From: Acidobacteriaceae bacterium
GTDB lineage: Bacteria > Acidobacteriota > Terriglobia > Terriglobales > Acidobacteriaceae
Assembly (NCBI GenBank): GCA_027449965.1
Contig: DAIDKP010000010.1
Span: forward strand, 1 to 64,000
Direction: 5' to 3'
Length of the DNA stretch: 64,000 nt
A model generated the notes under the pieces. That model was not told the origin of the DNA, made no database searches, and saw nothing but the letters and a program-made list of their open reading frames with translations. Below are positions 24,834-31,573 of the stretch, in pieces. Each line of letters starts with the position of its first letter. Within the stretch, counting starts at the first letter, position 1. The position numbers were made by a program, and so were the translations under genes.

Positions 24834-26723
24834 GTGAGTACTTTTGTGAAGGCAAATTTTGGCGTGGTTTCAACCGGACGCAAACGCAAGCGCATCTTTG
24901 CCAGCCTTGCAATCGGCTTGAGTGCGCTCGTAGCCACGACCAGTGCACCGGCTCGATCCATGCCGAAATCCGACGCAGCATCCACGCCTGTCTCGAACTT
25001 GACGCAAACTCCACCGCCATCCACCGTGGGTGTTTTTCCGCTCGACGATGTGCATCGCGGACTGATGGGCACAGCCTGGACGGTCTTTGAAGGCACACAG
25101 CCGGAGCCAATGCAGGTGGAGATTCTGGGTGTTCTGCGAGGCGCGCGCGGACCGGGGCGCGACCTCATTCTGGGCCGTCTGGTGGGCAAGAAACCGGAGT
25201 ACACGGGCGTTGTGGCCGGCATGAGCGGCAGTCCCGTCTATATTGACGGCAAGCTGCTCGGCGCGTTGTCCTACCGCATTGGCCAGTTCAGCAAGGAACC
25301 CATTGCCGGCATCACTCCAATCGAGCAGATGCTGGAGGTGCGCAACCTGACGCCGCTTCCCATCCAGGCGGAAAATTCGTCGGCGATGGCAGAAGACTCA
25401 CTCGACAACGCTCCCATGCAGGCCATGGAAACGCCCCTGCTGATGAGTGGCTTCTCTGCCGAAGCAGTTCAACTGTGGCGGAAACGCATGGCGGGTACGG
25501 GCCTGGAACAGATTGCCGCTGGAGGTCCGCTTGGATCAGGAGGCGCTGCGGCTGAGAAATCCTCTCCAGTTCTGCCTGGCTCCGCCGTCAGTCTCCTGCT
25601 GGTCCGCGGAGACATGGAGATTGCCGCCACCTGCACCGTCACCTATGTCGATCCGCATCGGCTGCTGGCCTGCGGTCACCCGATCTTCCAGTCGGGAGAA
25701 ATCTCGGTCCCGATGACGCGCGCTGAGGTGGTCGCCACCCTGCCGTCGCCGTTGAACGCCTTCAAGATCATCAACACAGGCGCAACCATCGGAGCTTTCA
25801 CCGAGGATCGCGATGCGGCCATCTCCGGCGTGCTCGGCGCAAGTGCCCGAATGATTCCGCTGGCCATGACTGTCTCCTCGGGAGCACACACGGTCACCCA
25901 TCATGTGGAGATTCTGAATCTGCCCACCATGACGGCTTCAGCGCTGCTGGTCTCGGTCTATCAGATGCTGCTTCAGACCAACCTGAGCACGGCGCAGACC
26001 ACCTATCACGTAACCGGATTGATTCATCTGGCTGGATTGCCCCCCGTACCTGTGGACGCATGGGGCGCGCCTGCCATCACCATGGCTCCGCAACTTGCCG
26101 CGGCCATTGGCGTCGGCAGCGTCTTTGACCAGCTCTATGCCAGCCCGCTCCGCAACGCAGCCAGCAACGCGATTCAAAGCATCGACCTGCATGTGGACGC
26201 ATTGGCGGGGAACCGCACCACTACGCTGGACAGCGTTCGGCTGCTCTCCTCCGGCATCGTCCATGCCGGAGACACGGTGACGCTGGAAGCGACGATCCAC
26301 CGTTGGCAACAGCCAGCGCATACCATGCAACTTTCTGCCAGGATCCCAGCCAATCTGCCTCCTGGAACGCTTCGCCTGCTGGTGAGCAATGGTGCTACGC
26401 TCGACCGCACGCTCGACGCCACCGCTCCCGGCAAGGAACAGGGCGGCTTTGCGGCAACCGTGGCTCGTCTGCGTGTGCGCCACCCCGCCGACAGACTCTA
26501 TCTAAGCCTGCTGCTGCCTGAAGCAGAGGCCTCGATGGAAGGTCAGATTCTGGATTCTATTCCACTTTCTCTGGCCAACGCGTTGGAGCCAATGCACCAA
26601 AGATCCGCTGCCGGGCTGCAGGGAGAATCCCTGGACCTGGCCACCAGCAAACCCGTCGATGGGGTGCTCACTGGATATCAGACTATTCCCGTGCACGTGG
26701 AAGCCGGCGGCGGGTTACACTAG
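24834..26723 (+). CDS. SpoIVB-type (S55) peptidase domain protein, secreted
   Basis: About 629 residues with a signal peptide (KRKRIFASLAIGLSALVATTS). Two S55-like motifs are visible: GMSGSPVY with candidate nucleophile Ser131, followed by GKLLGALSY and GITPIEQML, then CGHPIFQSGEIS with His282. In Bacillus SpoIVB the His precedes the Ser; here the order is the reverse. The rest (about 350-629) is beta-rich and unassigned. The start is uncertain: GTG 24834 is used; GTG 24846 is equally possible, and TTG 24663 would overlap the divergent gene. Sporulation is not implied. Confidence 0.78.
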   Translation: MSTFVKANFGVVSTGRKRKRIFASLAIGLSALVATTSAPARSMPKSDAASTPVSNLTQTPPPSTVGVFPLDDVHRGLMGTAWTVFEGTQPEPMQVEILGVLRGARGPGRDLILGRLVGKKPEYTGVVAGMSGSPVYIDGKLLGALSYRIGQFSKEPIAGITPIEQMLEVRNLTPLPIQAENSSAMAEDSLDNAPMQAMETPLLMSGFSAEAVQLWRKRMAGTGLEQIAAGGPLGSGGAAAEKSSPVLPGSAVSLLLVRGDMEIAATCTVTYVDPHRLLACGHPIFQSGEISVPMTRAEVVATLPSPLNAFKIINTGATIGAFTEDRDAAISGVLGASARMIPLAMTVSSGAHTVTHHVEILNLPTMTASALLVSVYQMLLQTNLSTAQTTYHVTGLIHLAGLPPVPVDAWGAPAITMAPQLAAAIGVGSVFDQLYASPLRNAASNAIQSIDLHVDALAGNRTTTLDSVRLLSSGIVHAGDTVTLEATIHRWQQPAHTMQLSARIPANLPPGTLRLLVSNGATLDRTLDATAPGKEQGGFAATVARLRVRHPADRLYLSLLLPEAEASMEGQILDSIPLSLANALEPMHQRSAAGLQGESLDLATSKPVDGVLTGYQTIPVHVEAGGGLH

Positions 26724-26826
26724 GACGAGTTGAGTTACGGCTGCAACCCACCGGGCAATCCCTCCACCCCGTTCCAGCAGCCGCTTCTTTTTGGGTATTT
26801 TTTTCGAGGCTTATCGGGGAATTGCG

Positions 26827-27834
26827 ATGAAACAAATTCAAGGACTTGCAGCCCACGCCGCTGGCGCGGAGCTGTTAACGTTTCGCTACAATCCGGGCGA
26901 ACTGAGGGCGCAGGAAGTGGAGATACAAATCTCACACTGCGGTGTCTGTCACAGCGATCTGCACCTGATCGCCAACGACTGGGGCATCAGCCAGTTCCCG
27001 TTCATTCCTGGCCACGAGATCATTGGGAAGGTGACCGCCGTCGGCTCTGAGGTCAAGTCCATTTCCGTGGGCCAGCGCGTCGGCGTCGGCTGGCAGTCCA
27101 ACTCCTGCGGACTGTGCGAGTGGTGCACCCAGGGGATGGAGAATCTGTGCCCTTCCGCCGAGGCAACCTGCGTCCATCGTCACGGTGGTTATGCCGATGC
27201 GGTCCGCGTGAATGCTCGCTTTGCCGTGCCGGTTCCAGACGCGCTGGCCAGCGAAAACGCCGCCCCGCTGCTCTGTGGCGGCATCACCGTCTACAATCCG
27301 CTGCGCATCCACGGCATCAATCCCTCTTCCCGCGTCGGCATCGTCGGCATCGGTGGTCTGGGACACATCGCGTTGCAGTTCGCACGGGTTTTTGGGGCCG
27401 AAGTCACGGCCTTTTCCACCTCCGCAGCCAAGGAAGACGAGGCGCGCGCGCTGGGTGCTCACCACTTCGTAAACACCCGCGAAACCAAGGCCATGCGTGA
27501 AGTTGCCGGACGCTTCGACTTCATCCTGAGCACCATCAACGCCGATCAGGACTGGATGAGCTACGTCCACGCCCTGCGACCGACCGGAACGCTTTGTTTT
27601 GTCGGTGTGCCCCCCTCGCCGGTCACCGTTCATGCCTTTCCGCTGATCTCCGGCGTGCGCACCATCACGGGCAGCCCCATCGGCAGTCCGCATCGGCTGC
27701 GAGAGATGCTGGATGTAGCTGCGCGACACGGCGTCAAGGCCCAGACCGAGTCGTTTCCCATGCATAAGGCCAACGAGGCTCTTGAAAAGGTGAAGAAAAA
27801 CAAGGTGCGATATCGCGCCGTGCTGACAAACTGA
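26827..27834 (+). CDS. zinc-dependent alcohol dehydrogenase (CAD/YahK-like)
   Basis: A 335-residue medium-chain dehydrogenase/reductase. Catalytic zinc ligands are in HCGVCHSDLHLI and GHEIIGKV; the structural zinc site is CGLCEWCTQGMENLC; the nucleotide fold shows VGIVGIGGLGHIALQ. This pattern fits NADP-dependent aldehyde reductases of the cinnamyl-alcohol/YahK type acting on broad aldehydes. The start at 26827 (GGGGAA upstream) is preferred to 26791. Substrate not deducible. Confidence 0.9.
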   Translation: MKQIQGLAAHAAGAELLTFRYNPGELRAQEVEIQISHCGVCHSDLHLIANDWGISQFPFIPGHEIIGKVTAVGSEVKSISVGQRVGVGWQSNSCGLCEWCTQGMENLCPSAEATCVHRHGGYADAVRVNARFAVPVPDALASENAAPLLCGGITVYNPLRIHGINPSSRVGIVGIGGLGHIALQFARVFGAEVTAFSTSAAKEDEARALGAHHFVNTRETKAMREVAGRFDFILSTINADQDWMSYVHALRPTGTLCFVGVPPSPVTVHAFPLISGVRTITGSPIGSPHRLREMLDVAARHGVKAQTESFPMHKANEALEKVKKNKVRYRAVLTN

Positions 27835-27887: not shown

Positions 27888-30296
27888 ATGAATTCTTTTC
27901 GCAGTGTGTTTTTCGCAGCCCTGGGTTCTGTAGTCGCTTCGACCTGTCGAGTGGTTCCCTCCCTGACGCTTCTGTCCGCGTTGCTCGTTTTGACAGGTCA
28001 CGCGCAAGGCACCCAGCTTTGGACACAGTCACAGGCCGCGGAGCTGGAAAAAGGAACGCCGCTCGGCGTCTCTGTCGCCTCAGACGGTGTGCTGCGCCGC
28101 GGCCCACTCGCCACGCTGCTGCGCACAACCTCCTCGACATTTGTCTGGGCCGCTGTCCCCGGCAAAAATGGAGACATCTTCGTCGCCACCGGCTCACCCG
28201 CCACCGTGCAGCGGCTGAGCGCAGACGGAAAGACCGCAACCACCCTGCTGATGACCAAAGCCCTGGCCGTGCAGTCGCTGGCGCTGGGTCCGGATGGCGC
28301 TCTCTATGCCGCGACCATGCCGGATGGTCGAGTCTACCGGCTCAATCCCGATGCCAAGCTGCCGGTGGACGCAGCCACAACCAGGCCAATCTTTGACCTC
28401 AGTGATTTTGACCATGGCACTCTGGACGACACCAGCGCGGCCAGGAAAACTGACGCCGACAACGCAAAATCTGCCACACACGCACACTACATCTGGGCGA
28501 TGACCTTTGACGCTGCCGGACGCCTCTACATGGCAACCGGAGGACCGGGCGTAATCTATCGCCTGGACCTGACACGCCCTGATTCTGCACATCCTGATTC
28601 TGCACATCCTGATTCCGCCCATGCCGAGCCAGCAGCGCAAGCTTTTTTTGTAACCGATGAGCAGCATATCCGTGCTTTGGCATGGGACAAGGACGGCAAC
28701 CTGATCGCGGGCAGCGATGGCTCCGGACTGGTCTATCGCATCAGCCCGAGCGGCAAGGGTTTTGTACTTTTTGCCGCACCTCACCGCGAGATCACCGCAC
28801 TTGCCGTCGATACCAGCGGCACCCTTTGGGCCGCCGACGCGGGCGACAAATCGCGCAGCCCATTGCCTGCCCTGCCCATCTCCAGCGGCAGCCCCAGCAT
28901 CACGATCTCGTTCAACCAGCCAGGCTCTGTGCAGGCGGCCAATGCCAGCACCACCCTGCCCGATGGCACCGAAATCTATGCGCTGACGGCCCACGCCGCG
29001 CCGCGCAAGGTGTGGCAAGGCCACGATGAAATCGTCTACAGCCTGACGGCTACACCCGACGGACTGCTGGCCGCAACCGGCAATCAGGGCAGGATTCTGC
29101 TGCTCCAGCCGGATGGCGGTGAGCGCGATCTTGCCCACGTCAACGCGCAGCAGGCGCTGGCAATTTCCACCGCTCGCGATGGATGGCTGATCGCCACCGC
29201 CAATCCGGGCCAGGTCTATCATCTTGCCGATGGCGGCGCCACCACCGAACACGCCTATGCCAGCGACCTGCTCGATGCCGGAGCGCTCGCTCGCTGGGGC
29301 CGCATCGAGGTGGATCCGGAGTCAAAGGGATATCACCTTTTCACGCGCTCCGGAAACGTGGATCAGCCCATACGCAAGGAGAGCAACTGGGGATGGTCCG
29401 ACTGGAAGCCGCTCAACGGGAGCCAGATCGATTCGCCGCCGGGGCGTTATCTTCAGTGGAAGGCTATCCTCGATCCGGGCGGACAACTGGCCGGCGTCGG
29501 CGTAAACTACCTGCCAGTGAACTCCGCCCCCACGGTCGATGCGATTGTCGTGGTGCCCGGTGCGCGCTATACGCCTCAGCCGCAATCCTCCGCATCGCAG
29601 ACCGTGAACATCAGTTTCCCGTCCAGCGACGGCAGTGCAAACAACGATGGCGGATCGACCAGCAGCTCTCCGCTGCAGGCGCAGAAGGATGCGAGGGCTG
29701 TGACCGTCCGCTGGGCAGCGCATGACGACAACGACGACACGCTGGCTTACGATCTCTATCTGCGCGGTGACCATGAGCAGGTCTGGCGGCGTCTCCAGAG
29801 CAACCTCAGCGAAAAAGCGTGGAGCTTCGATACGGACAGCATTCCGGATGGCGGCTACCGCGTGCGCGTGGTCGCAACCGACCTGCCTTCGCACACTCCA
29901 GCCGAGGCTCTGACGGGCGAAAAAATCAGCGACCGCTTCGTGATCGACACTACGCCGCCGGTCATCTCTGCGCTCCATGCCGGTCCTGTCACAACCGCCT
30001 GCTCTGCTGTCCATGCAACGCACTGCATCGCCGCCACCTGGGATGCGCAGGATGCCACTTCACCCATTGCCGAGGCGCAGTACTCGATTGACGCCGGTCC
30101 CTGGCAATATGTCGAGCCGGTCGGCGAACTCTCCGACGCGCGCACCGAACACTACTCGTTGACCCTGCCACTGCCGGATTTGGCAGACCCGGCTGCCGAG
30201 CACCTGATAGCCGTCCGCGTCAGTGACCGCTTCGATAATCTTTCCGTCGCAAAGACCGTCGTGCCCGCCGTTGCAACCCCGGAGCCGAAACCTTGA
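27888..30296 (+). CDS. secreted beta-propeller protein with C-terminal Fn3-like domain
   Basis: 802 residues: signal peptide (VVPSLTLLSALLVLTGHAQG), then NHL/SMP-30-like propeller repeats across about 60-460 (LALGPDGALYAATMPDGRVYRL, in part; ALAWDKDGNLIAGSDGSGLV; VYSLTATPDGLLAATGNQGR). A second part has jelly-roll and Fn3-like features (SYRVRV-type strands, FVIDTTPPVISALHAGP). A triple PDSAH repeat lies at about 231-245. Its function is unknown. The stop overlaps the next gene by 4 nt, suggesting coupling with the LolC/E-like permease. Confidence 0.8.
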   Translation: MNSFRSVFFAALGSVVASTCRVVPSLTLLSALLVLTGHAQGTQLWTQSQAAELEKGTPLGVSVASDGVLRRGPLATLLRTTSSTFVWAAVPGKNGDIFVATGSPATVQRLSADGKTATTLLMTKALAVQSLALGPDGALYAATMPDGRVYRLNPDAKLPVDAATTRPIFDLSDFDHGTLDDTSAARKTDADNAKSATHAHYIWAMTFDAAGRLYMATGGPGVIYRLDLTRPDSAHPDSAHPDSAHAEPAAQAFFVTDEQHIRALAWDKDGNLIAGSDGSGLVYRISPSGKGFVLFAAPHREITALAVDTSGTLWAADAGDKSRSPLPALPISSGSPSITISFNQPGSVQAANASTTLPDGTEIYALTAHAAPRKVWQGHDEIVYSLTATPDGLLAATGNQGRILLLQPDGGERDLAHVNAQQALAISTARDGWLIATANPGQVYHLADGGATTEHAYASDLLDAGALARWGRIEVDPESKGYHLFTRSGNVDQPIRKESNWGWSDWKPLNGSQIDSPPGRYLQWKAILDPGGQLAGVGVNYLPVNSAPTVDAIVVVPGARYTPQPQSSASQTVNISFPSSDGSANNDGGSTSSSPLQAQKDARAVTVRWAAHDDNDDTLAYDLYLRGDHEQVWRRLQSNLSEKAWSFDTDSIPDGGYRVRVVATDLPSHTPAEALTGEKISDRFVIDTTPPVISALHAGPVTTACSAVHATHCIAATWDAQDATSPIAEAQYSIDAGPWQYVEPVGELSDARTEHYSLTLPLPDLADPAAEHLIAVRVSDRFDNLSVAKTVVPAVATPEPKP
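28578..28622 (+). repeat. three tandem 15-bp units in the propeller gene
   Basis: CCTGATTCTGCACAT occurs at 28578-28592 and 28593-28607, and a diverged copy (CCTGATTCCGCCCAT) at 28608-28622. It encodes PDSAH three times, lies in a loop between propeller blades and keeps the frame, so copy-number change would not disrupt the gene. Confidence 0.9.
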
Positions 30297-31573
30297 AGTT
30301 CGGCTTCGAGCTGTTCTTTGCCGCGCGATATCTCCGCGCGCGCAGACGTCAGGCAGTCATCGGACTGGTGACGGGGATCTCGATCCTGGGCATCGCCGCG
30401 GGGGTCGCTGCGTTGATCATTGCGCTGGCCGTCACCAACGGAATGCGGCGCGATGTGCAGGATCGACTGCTCGGCAGCTCAGCCCACATCGACCTGTTGC
30501 GCGCCGACGCCAAAGGCATCCGTGACTGGCAGCCGCTGGTGGAGCGGCTTGGCCACCTGCCTCACGTGGTCGCTGACGCGCCCGGCCTCTACGAGCAGGT
30601 TCTCGTCGCGCGTGGCCCCCGCGATGGTGGCGCGCTGCTGAAAGGCATCCTGCCCTCTGCGGAGAATCGCATCAGCCATCTGGAATCGACAGTGACGCCG
30701 GCTGGAGCCTTTGCGCAGCTTGCTCCGCAGGCCGGTGATGCGCAAAACTCGACCGGCAACGCTGCCAGCAATCTGGCTGCGCCCGCACCCATCCTACTGG
30801 GCAGCGACCTGGCGGAAAATATCGGCGCCTCCGTGGGAGATTCCGTGATGATTATCAGCCCACAAGGCGAACTGACGCCGCTTGGCATCGTTCCCAAATA
30901 CGTGCGGTTTCGCGTGGCAGGCATCTTTCACTCCGGCTTTTACCAGTACGACTCCGGCATGGGCTATATCCGGCTCGCCGACGCGCAGCGCCTCTTTGCC
31001 GAGCCGGATCTGATCACCGTCATCGACTTTCGCGTGGATGATCTCTACGCCGCCAACCGCATCGCTCGCTCGGTCGAGCAGGCGGCCGGACCCGGATTTC
31101 AGGCTACAAGCTGGATGGAAGAAAATCGCGAGTTGTTTCGCGCGCTGGCGCTGCAACGCGTGGTCACCTTCCTGATCCTGGGGCTGATCGTGCTTGTGGC
31201 CGCGCTCAATATCCTCATCGCGCTCACCATGATGGTGATGGAAAAGACGCGCGATATTGCGATCCTCATGAGCTTTGGCGTGGAGCCGGCACAGATTCGC
31301 CGGATTTTTCTGTTGCAGGGCCTGCTCATCAGCCTGATCGGAACCGCGCTGGGCCTTGCACTTGGCTACCTGGGCGCATGGGCGGGCGGACACTATCACT
31401 TCGTCCACCTGTCGGCCTCACTGTACAACCTGGATACGCTGCCGTTTGCGCCCCGGCTTGTGGACGGCGTGCTGGTCAGCGTCGTCTCCATCGGCGTCGC
31501 GCTGCTGGCCACGCTGTATCCTTCGTCGGCCGCGGCCAGTATTCTGCCCGCTGAAGCGCTTCGTTACGAGTAG
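30293..31573 (+). CDS. LolC/LolE-like ABC transporter permease
   Basis: A 426-residue permease with the lipoprotein-releasing architecture: helix at about 20-45 (IGLVTGISILGIAAGVAALI), a large periplasmic domain (about 50-270), then three helices (about 280-410) including the FtsX-like segment MVMEKTRDIAILMSFG. LolC/E with LolD extract lipoproteins for transfer to the outer membrane. No LolD ATPase is adjacent. The start is TTG at 30293, overlapping the upstream stop (TTGA); no other start suits the first helix. Confidence 0.88.
   Translation: MKFGFELFFAARYLRARRRQAVIGLVTGISILGIAAGVAALIIALAVTNGMRRDVQDRLLGSSAHIDLLRADAKGIRDWQPLVERLGHLPHVVADAPGLYEQVLVARGPRDGGALLKGILPSAENRISHLESTVTPAGAFAQLAPQAGDAQNSTGNAASNLAAPAPILLGSDLAENIGASVGDSVMIISPQGELTPLGIVPKYVRFRVAGIFHSGFYQYDSGMGYIRLADAQRLFAEPDLITVIDFRVDDLYAANRIARSVEQAAGPGFQATSWMEENRELFRALALQRVVTFLILGLIVLVAALNILIALTMMVMEKTRDIAILMSFGVEPAQIRRIFLLQGLLISLIGTALGLALGYLGAWAGGHYHFVHLSASLYNLDTLPFAPRLVDGVLVSVVSIGVALLATLYPSSAAASILPAEALRYE

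Follow-up and report, generated by a model that had tools for sequence, protein, structure and literature searches.

Few enzymes have been studied as thoroughly as the trypsin-like proteases of the PA clan, in which the order of the catalytic residues along the chain is treated as a signature. The closest described relatives of the protein considered here are the SpoIVB peptidases of Bacillota (MEROPS S55, PF05580). In B. subtilis SpoIVB the catalytic histidine, His236 (in ALGH), precedes Ser378 (in GMSGSP), as the initial annotation of this locus had stated, and the same His-first order is found in three further Bacillota SpoIVB sequences taken from plasmid records. The B. subtilis sequence is identical to PDB chain 9LNF from residue 102 onwards, except for the S378A/S380A substitutions of the crystallized construct. 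In the crystal structure Asp363 lies ∼24 Å from His236, and Thr393 has been suggested as its substitute (PMC12502668). S55 peptidases have already been counted in acidobacterial genomes; the accessible part of that report makes no comment on the order of their domains (PMC8841776).

Motif order and profile evidence

The stretch of DNA analyzed here (the window) comprises 64,000 nucleotides from the genome of an Acidobacteriaceae bacterium, which carries a single copy of the protease gene (Table 1). Translation of the frame bears out the reversed motif order noticed initially: GMSGSPVY, whose first serine is residue 131, comes ahead of CGHPIFQSGEIS, in which the histidine of CGHP is residue 282. 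The frame is open upstream as far as 24663, and the GTG near 24864 would, by eye, also provide a good signal peptide. A scan for sigma-70 promoters returned nothing above chance.

Table 1. Features of the protease locus, with positions numbered from the first letter of the window
Feature	Position	Strand	Basis or remark
Permuted S55-type peptidase gene, 629 aa	24834..26723	+	Open frame of 629 codons; start codon uncertain (GTG at 24834 or ∼24864)
Probable Sec signal peptide, residues 1–42	24834..24959	+	Translation, by eye: KRKR, hydrophobic IFASLAIGLSALVATT, then APA
Ser-bearing beta barrel and following helix, residues 58–171	25005..25346	+	Equivalent to the C-terminal barrel of SpoIVB/chymotrypsin; Pfam S55, AlphaFold2
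Ser131, presumed nucleophile (GMSGSP)	25224..25226	+	Invariant in 81/81 and 46/46
New linker, residues 172–245	25347..25568	+	Consensus with conserved P-I-x-TPLxxSGF; connects the barrels in swapped order
His/Asp-bearing six-stranded barrel, residues 243–352	25560..25889	+	Equivalent to the N-terminal barrel of SpoIVB/chymotrypsin; AlphaFold2, rejoining test
His282, presumed general base (GHP after third strand)	25677..25679	+	Invariant in 81/81 and 46/46
Asp325, presumed third catalytic residue, end of fifth strand	25806..25808	+	Invariant in 81/81 and 46/46
C-terminal half, residues 353–629	25890..26720	+	Beta/alpha segments and a beta-rich, Ig-like-looking part (AlphaFold2 secondary structure); no family match in Pfam
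Zinc alcohol dehydrogenase-like gene	26791..27834	+	Lies between protease and propeller, in some members of the window's own family only
Exported beta-propeller protein, 802 aa, partner	27888..30296	+	Pfam Reg_prop and WD40 matches

In its native order the protein matches the Pfam S55 profile over residues 82–148, which correspond to profile positions 126–193 of 210, with a score of 26.6 bits against a gathering cut-off of 25. The whole-domain order of S55, a His barrel followed by a Ser barrel, is not that of the protein, where Ser precedes His. Against the SpoIVB equivalog TIGR02860 it scores 21.3 bits, the cut-off being 305, and no PDZ domain was found in it by Pfam.

To restore the SpoIVB order residues 243–346 were joined in front of residues 64–178. 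The rejoined protein gives a single continuous S55 match (positions 14–193, 35.0 bits). The same operation on one homologue (L035) yields 61.7 bits over positions 13–194, compared with 43.2 bits for its Ser half alone; its His half alone scores 17.2 bits (E 0.0054, positions 13–84). With a profile built from the four SpoIVB sequences only, the rejoined form outscores the Ser half in 79 of the 81 homologues, by a mean of 5.5 bits. A shuffled His half does so in just 3–6/81 and a different region of the same protein in 5/81, with mean changes of ∼−1.2 and ∼−1.1 bits, respectively; a reversed His half, judged solely by its median score, brings no gain.

Taken alone, the His half is weak by sequence. 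The window's own half has no match in Pfam, six of the 81 homologues match at E ≤0.5 (best 0.035), and a scan of NCBIfam returned only scattered chance matches. Direct profile–profile comparison with the four SpoIVB sequences finds the correct register but is not significant (probability 2.9), which is why chimeras with controls were used. The argument for permutation is therefore built on the rejoining controls and on the fold. Two further candidates were rejected: a PDZ origin for the linker (hhalign of the linker against the SpoIVB PDZ, probability 3, no signal), and a remnant of a second Ser barrel following the His barrel, such as tandem duplication and subsequent loss would leave (hhalign probability 0.5–1.5, no signal).

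Predicted fold and catalytic residues

An AlphaFold2 model of residues 58–629, built from 81 sequences, contains two barrels and is of high overall confidence (pLDDT 88.1, pTM 0.88). Residues 58–171 match the Ser barrel of PA-clan proteases, among them that of SpoIVB 9LNF, on whose residues 305–416 they superpose with Z 9.9 and an rmsd of 2.3 Å over 109 residues. The His half (residues 243–352), when modelled alone, forms six strands (pLDDT 90.5), and among 350,542 PDB chains its top Foldseek match is 9LNF, with a probability of 1.00 and a weak E of 0.1. With VIA this half (best Z 8.1) mainly finds the second barrels of trypsin-like proteases, a result that the pseudo-symmetry of the fold could explain; 9LNF lies outside the 50 VIA-align matches listed, and such absence is no evidence either way. 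Both halves are thus homologous to SpoIVB irrespective of their order, as judged from the rejoining test and the fold matches. The models and fold matches also display the defining arrangement of the PA clan: a pair of six-stranded barrels, one bearing His and Asp, the other Ser. The additional beta-rich C-terminal half of the initial annotation is recovered in the predicted secondary structure, where beta/alpha segments accompany the beta-rich part.

Conservation was assessed in two sets, the 81 homologues from several phyla and 46 Acidobacteriota sequences from another search. Since Ser131 and His282 are invariant in both (81/81 and 46/46), the two motifs are not due to chance. A third invariant residue, Asp325, is an addition to the initial annotation, which named only the other two. 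It sits 43 residues after His282; in the model of the His half, His282 comes after strand three and Asp325 lies at the end of strand five, as in chymotrypsin, where the residues at these positions are His57 and Asp102.

Two family motifs can be placed on SpoIVB. AxGTVTxxDGxxxYAFGH aligns with the segment at its GH motif, and an ungapped alignment pairs the Asp motif, VGxIxQDRxxGIxG, with IGDINRNSPFGIFG, from which it follows that Asp325 corresponds to Asn290 of B. subtilis SpoIVB. In the three other SpoIVB sequences this position is Asn, Ser and Asn. A missing triad Asp at the place of Asn290 fits the ∼24 Å that separate Asp363 from His236 in the crystal (PMC12502668). On this alignment the permuted family seems to retain a classical triad that SpoIVB lacks. 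Asn290 may also account for the lack of an Asp near His236 in the crystal structure of the B. subtilis enzyme.

Distribution of the family and its probable propeller partner

Swapped-order homologues are present in 144 of 149 Acidobacteriota genomes. Pfam S55 finds matches in 95/99 genomes of this phylum, always at about positions 104–202 of 210 (a few are shorter) and N-terminal in ORFs of ∼600 aa. When 84,980 species genomes were scanned, at least 587 confirmed relatives emerged, the best 80 of which come from Acidobacteriota, Aminicenantes, Zixibacteria, Gemmatimonadales, Brocadia and Kuenenia (Planctomycetota), KSB1, Latescibacterota and Cloacimonadota. Across 119 Planctomycetota genomes, too, the S55 matches without exception fall within the profile's last half. 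From the partial matches and the survey together, the swapped order is the norm beyond Bacillota among the phyla examined. The initial annotation had proposed a survey of motif order across acidobacterial S55 proteins, and all matches surveyed proved to be of the Ser-first form, covering the last half of the profile. What had looked like the peculiarity of a single protein is normal in Acidobacteriota and in several other phyla. The same annotation saw no sign of sporulation in the host; this stands for Spo0A (PF08769), the sole marker examined, to which the genome has no match and the B. subtilis control does. Within the window's family two nearly complete genomes (G047 and G123) are without the protease, and G047 is also without the propeller; they are useful natural deletions.

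The one strongly conserved neighbour of the protease is a gene for a beta-propeller protein, a finding that goes beyond the initial annotation. In 61 of 80 loci the protease is followed immediately, on the same strand, by a propeller homologue; eight of the 19 others have less than 1 kb of sequence left, so that the evaluable loci number 72 (61/72). Among 99 Acidobacteriota genomes 95 contain both genes, and the same four (G030, G047, G050 and G096) contain neither (Fisher p 2.7e-7). Of 119 Planctomycetota genomes 33 have the propeller and all 33 have the protease, 31 by a Pfam S55 match and two (G230 and G248) by a sensitive protease profile; none was found with one gene only. The sole Planctomycetota genome with S55 but no propeller (G161) lacks any match to the sensitive profile, its S55 hit being probably false, and the remaining 85 were checked for the protease by Pfam S55 only. 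The co-occurrence in this phylum has a Fisher p of 4.5e-25, calculated before G230, G248 and G161 were corrected. Protease and propeller are thus present or absent together in all 218 genomes compared. Three genomes (G087, G068 and G238) have two proteases and two propellers each, every pair being adjacent. Long open frames in some genomes hinted at a fusion of the two genes, but the long frame of G117 is in another reading frame and its protease frame terminates at a stop; the candidate was rejected.

Other neighbours are less constant or of separate interest. The alcohol dehydrogenase-like gene accompanies the protease in the window and in nine relatives of the same family. The C-terminal region of the propeller protein shows a weak likeness to OmpL47-type domains, and the end of its gene overlaps by 4 bases a gene for a LolC/LolE-like lipoprotein-release permease (30293–31573, forward strand). 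Divergently oriented on the other side of the protease is a gene (23327 to ∼24340, reverse strand) with an apparent von Willebrand A-like domain, recognized by eye, which adjoins the protease in each of the 14 genomes belonging to the window's family. Conservation is limited to its last ∼340 codons and, accordingly, the 631-codon ORF that overlaps the start of the protease is probably too long.

Interpretation and comparison with known systems

It is well supported that the S55/PA-clan catalytic unit has here undergone circular permutation, and the permuted form is conserved across phyla. Permutation was one of two origins envisaged initially, and three independent lines of evidence speak for it: the profile rejoining, the fold of each half and the conservation of Ser131, His282 and Asp325. 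The other origin, independent assembly, is disfavoured, since each half shows a specific resemblance to SpoIVB. The swapped halves, the three residues kept and the co-occurrence with the propeller together suggest that the protein is probably a protease in rearranged form that remains active and belongs to a two-protein system. We consider it highly probable that the encoded protein is exported and acts as a serine peptidase within the SpoIVB (S55) branch of the PA clan, has swapped barrels and a predicted Ser131–His282–Asp325 triad, and works with a secreted propeller. Along the chain the Ser barrel would be followed by the new linker, the His/Asp barrel and an additional region at the C-terminus. 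Packing of the two barrels is predicted to resemble that in other PA-clan enzymes, and we infer that this brings the three residues within triad distance, with Ser131 as nucleophile, His282 as base and Asp325 completing a classical triad. The enzyme would act outside the cytoplasm with its obligate secreted propeller, which is most likely a putative subunit for substrate binding and recognition or for regulation. More tentatively, at a little under an even chance, the family may be a natural permuted version of the chymotrypsin fold, near-universal in one phylum and present in several others, whose Ser–His–Asp triad operates in an obligate envelope pair with the propeller as a trans-acting substrate gate or regulator.

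Four rival explanations bear on different parts of this reading. The apparent permutation might be half of an S55 domain, the Ser half, followed by an unrelated barrel with a chance GHP motif. The Ser half alone exceeds the Pfam cut-off and the isolated His half is marginal against S55, as this would predict; yet rejoining raises the score in 79/81 homologues as against 3–6/81 in controls (the reversed half being judged by its median only), the GH motif of the family and its Asp motif align with SpoIVB, the latter with IGDINRNSPFGIFG, and 9LNF is the best fold match of the His half taken by itself. We regard such a chance pairing as very improbable, and it is the only rival that the data exclude, and that largely. 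The swapped order and the ∼70-residue linker would also permit a domain-swapped dimer, in which the Ser barrel pairs with the His barrel of a second chain and no chain holds a complete active site. This we think improbable, given a single-chain pTM of 0.88, which suggests confident relative placement within one chain.

A permuted PA-clan fold could, moreover, have given up proteolysis and now serve as a binding or structural partner of the propeller. The activity of every family member is a prediction, the C-terminal half and the obligate propeller suggest a scaffold, and repurposing of a trypsin-like protease does occur, as a report on MamO describes (PMC4794232). Against this, the triad residues are invariant in the 81 and 46 sequences, from many phyla, and pseudo-enzymes rarely keep them; loss of activity is in our judgement unlikely. 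Where the propeller is concerned, co-occurrence and gene order fit an enzyme and its dedicated substrate equally well, and there is a modest but appreciable chance that the propeller is cleaved by the protease rather than being its partner subunit.

If the permuted, active protease is accepted, the existence in nature of a large family whose barrels are swapped implies that the PA-clan fold tolerates permutation. Databases have concealed the family, since their profiles recognize just one half of the protein, and no earlier description of permuted S55 or permuted chymotrypsin folds was found in the literature searched outside subscription journals. A near-universal protein of Acidobacteriota gains a testable mechanism and a partner, and the co-occurrence of protease and propeller defines an unstudied two-gene system, predicted to be exported, in dominant soil bacteria.

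Of known systems SpoIVB of Bacillota is the closest. Both barrel halves are recognizable in the permuted family by profile and by fold, and the two share the GMSGSP nucleophile motif, a GH motif after a GxxTxT strand and the character of an exported serine peptidase, export being predicted for the permuted family. In contrast to SpoIVB, the permuted proteins have swapped barrels, no detected PDZ domain, an extra C-terminal half and a propeller partner. They carry Asp325 where SpoIVB has Asn290 (Asn or Ser in the three others), have A-x-Y in place of an equivalent of Thr393–His394, and occur outside a sporulation context as judged from Spo0A. HtrA/Deg proteases and MarP (Rv3671c) resemble the family in the fold of the Ser barrel (VIA Z ∼9–11 over ∼100 residues) and, as exported serine proteases, in the His–Asp–Ser triad, which for the permuted family is predicted. 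Their barrels, however, follow the canonical order His, Asp, Ser, and HtrA has C-terminal PDZ domains, none of which is seen here. Cooperation between a beta-propeller and a serine peptidase is familiar from Tricorn and from prolyl oligopeptidase/DPP-IV, in which a single chain carries both and the peptidases have folds unrelated to the PA clan. Here the propeller is encoded by a separate gene and the peptidase is PA-clan-like, so that the likeness is one of analogy only.
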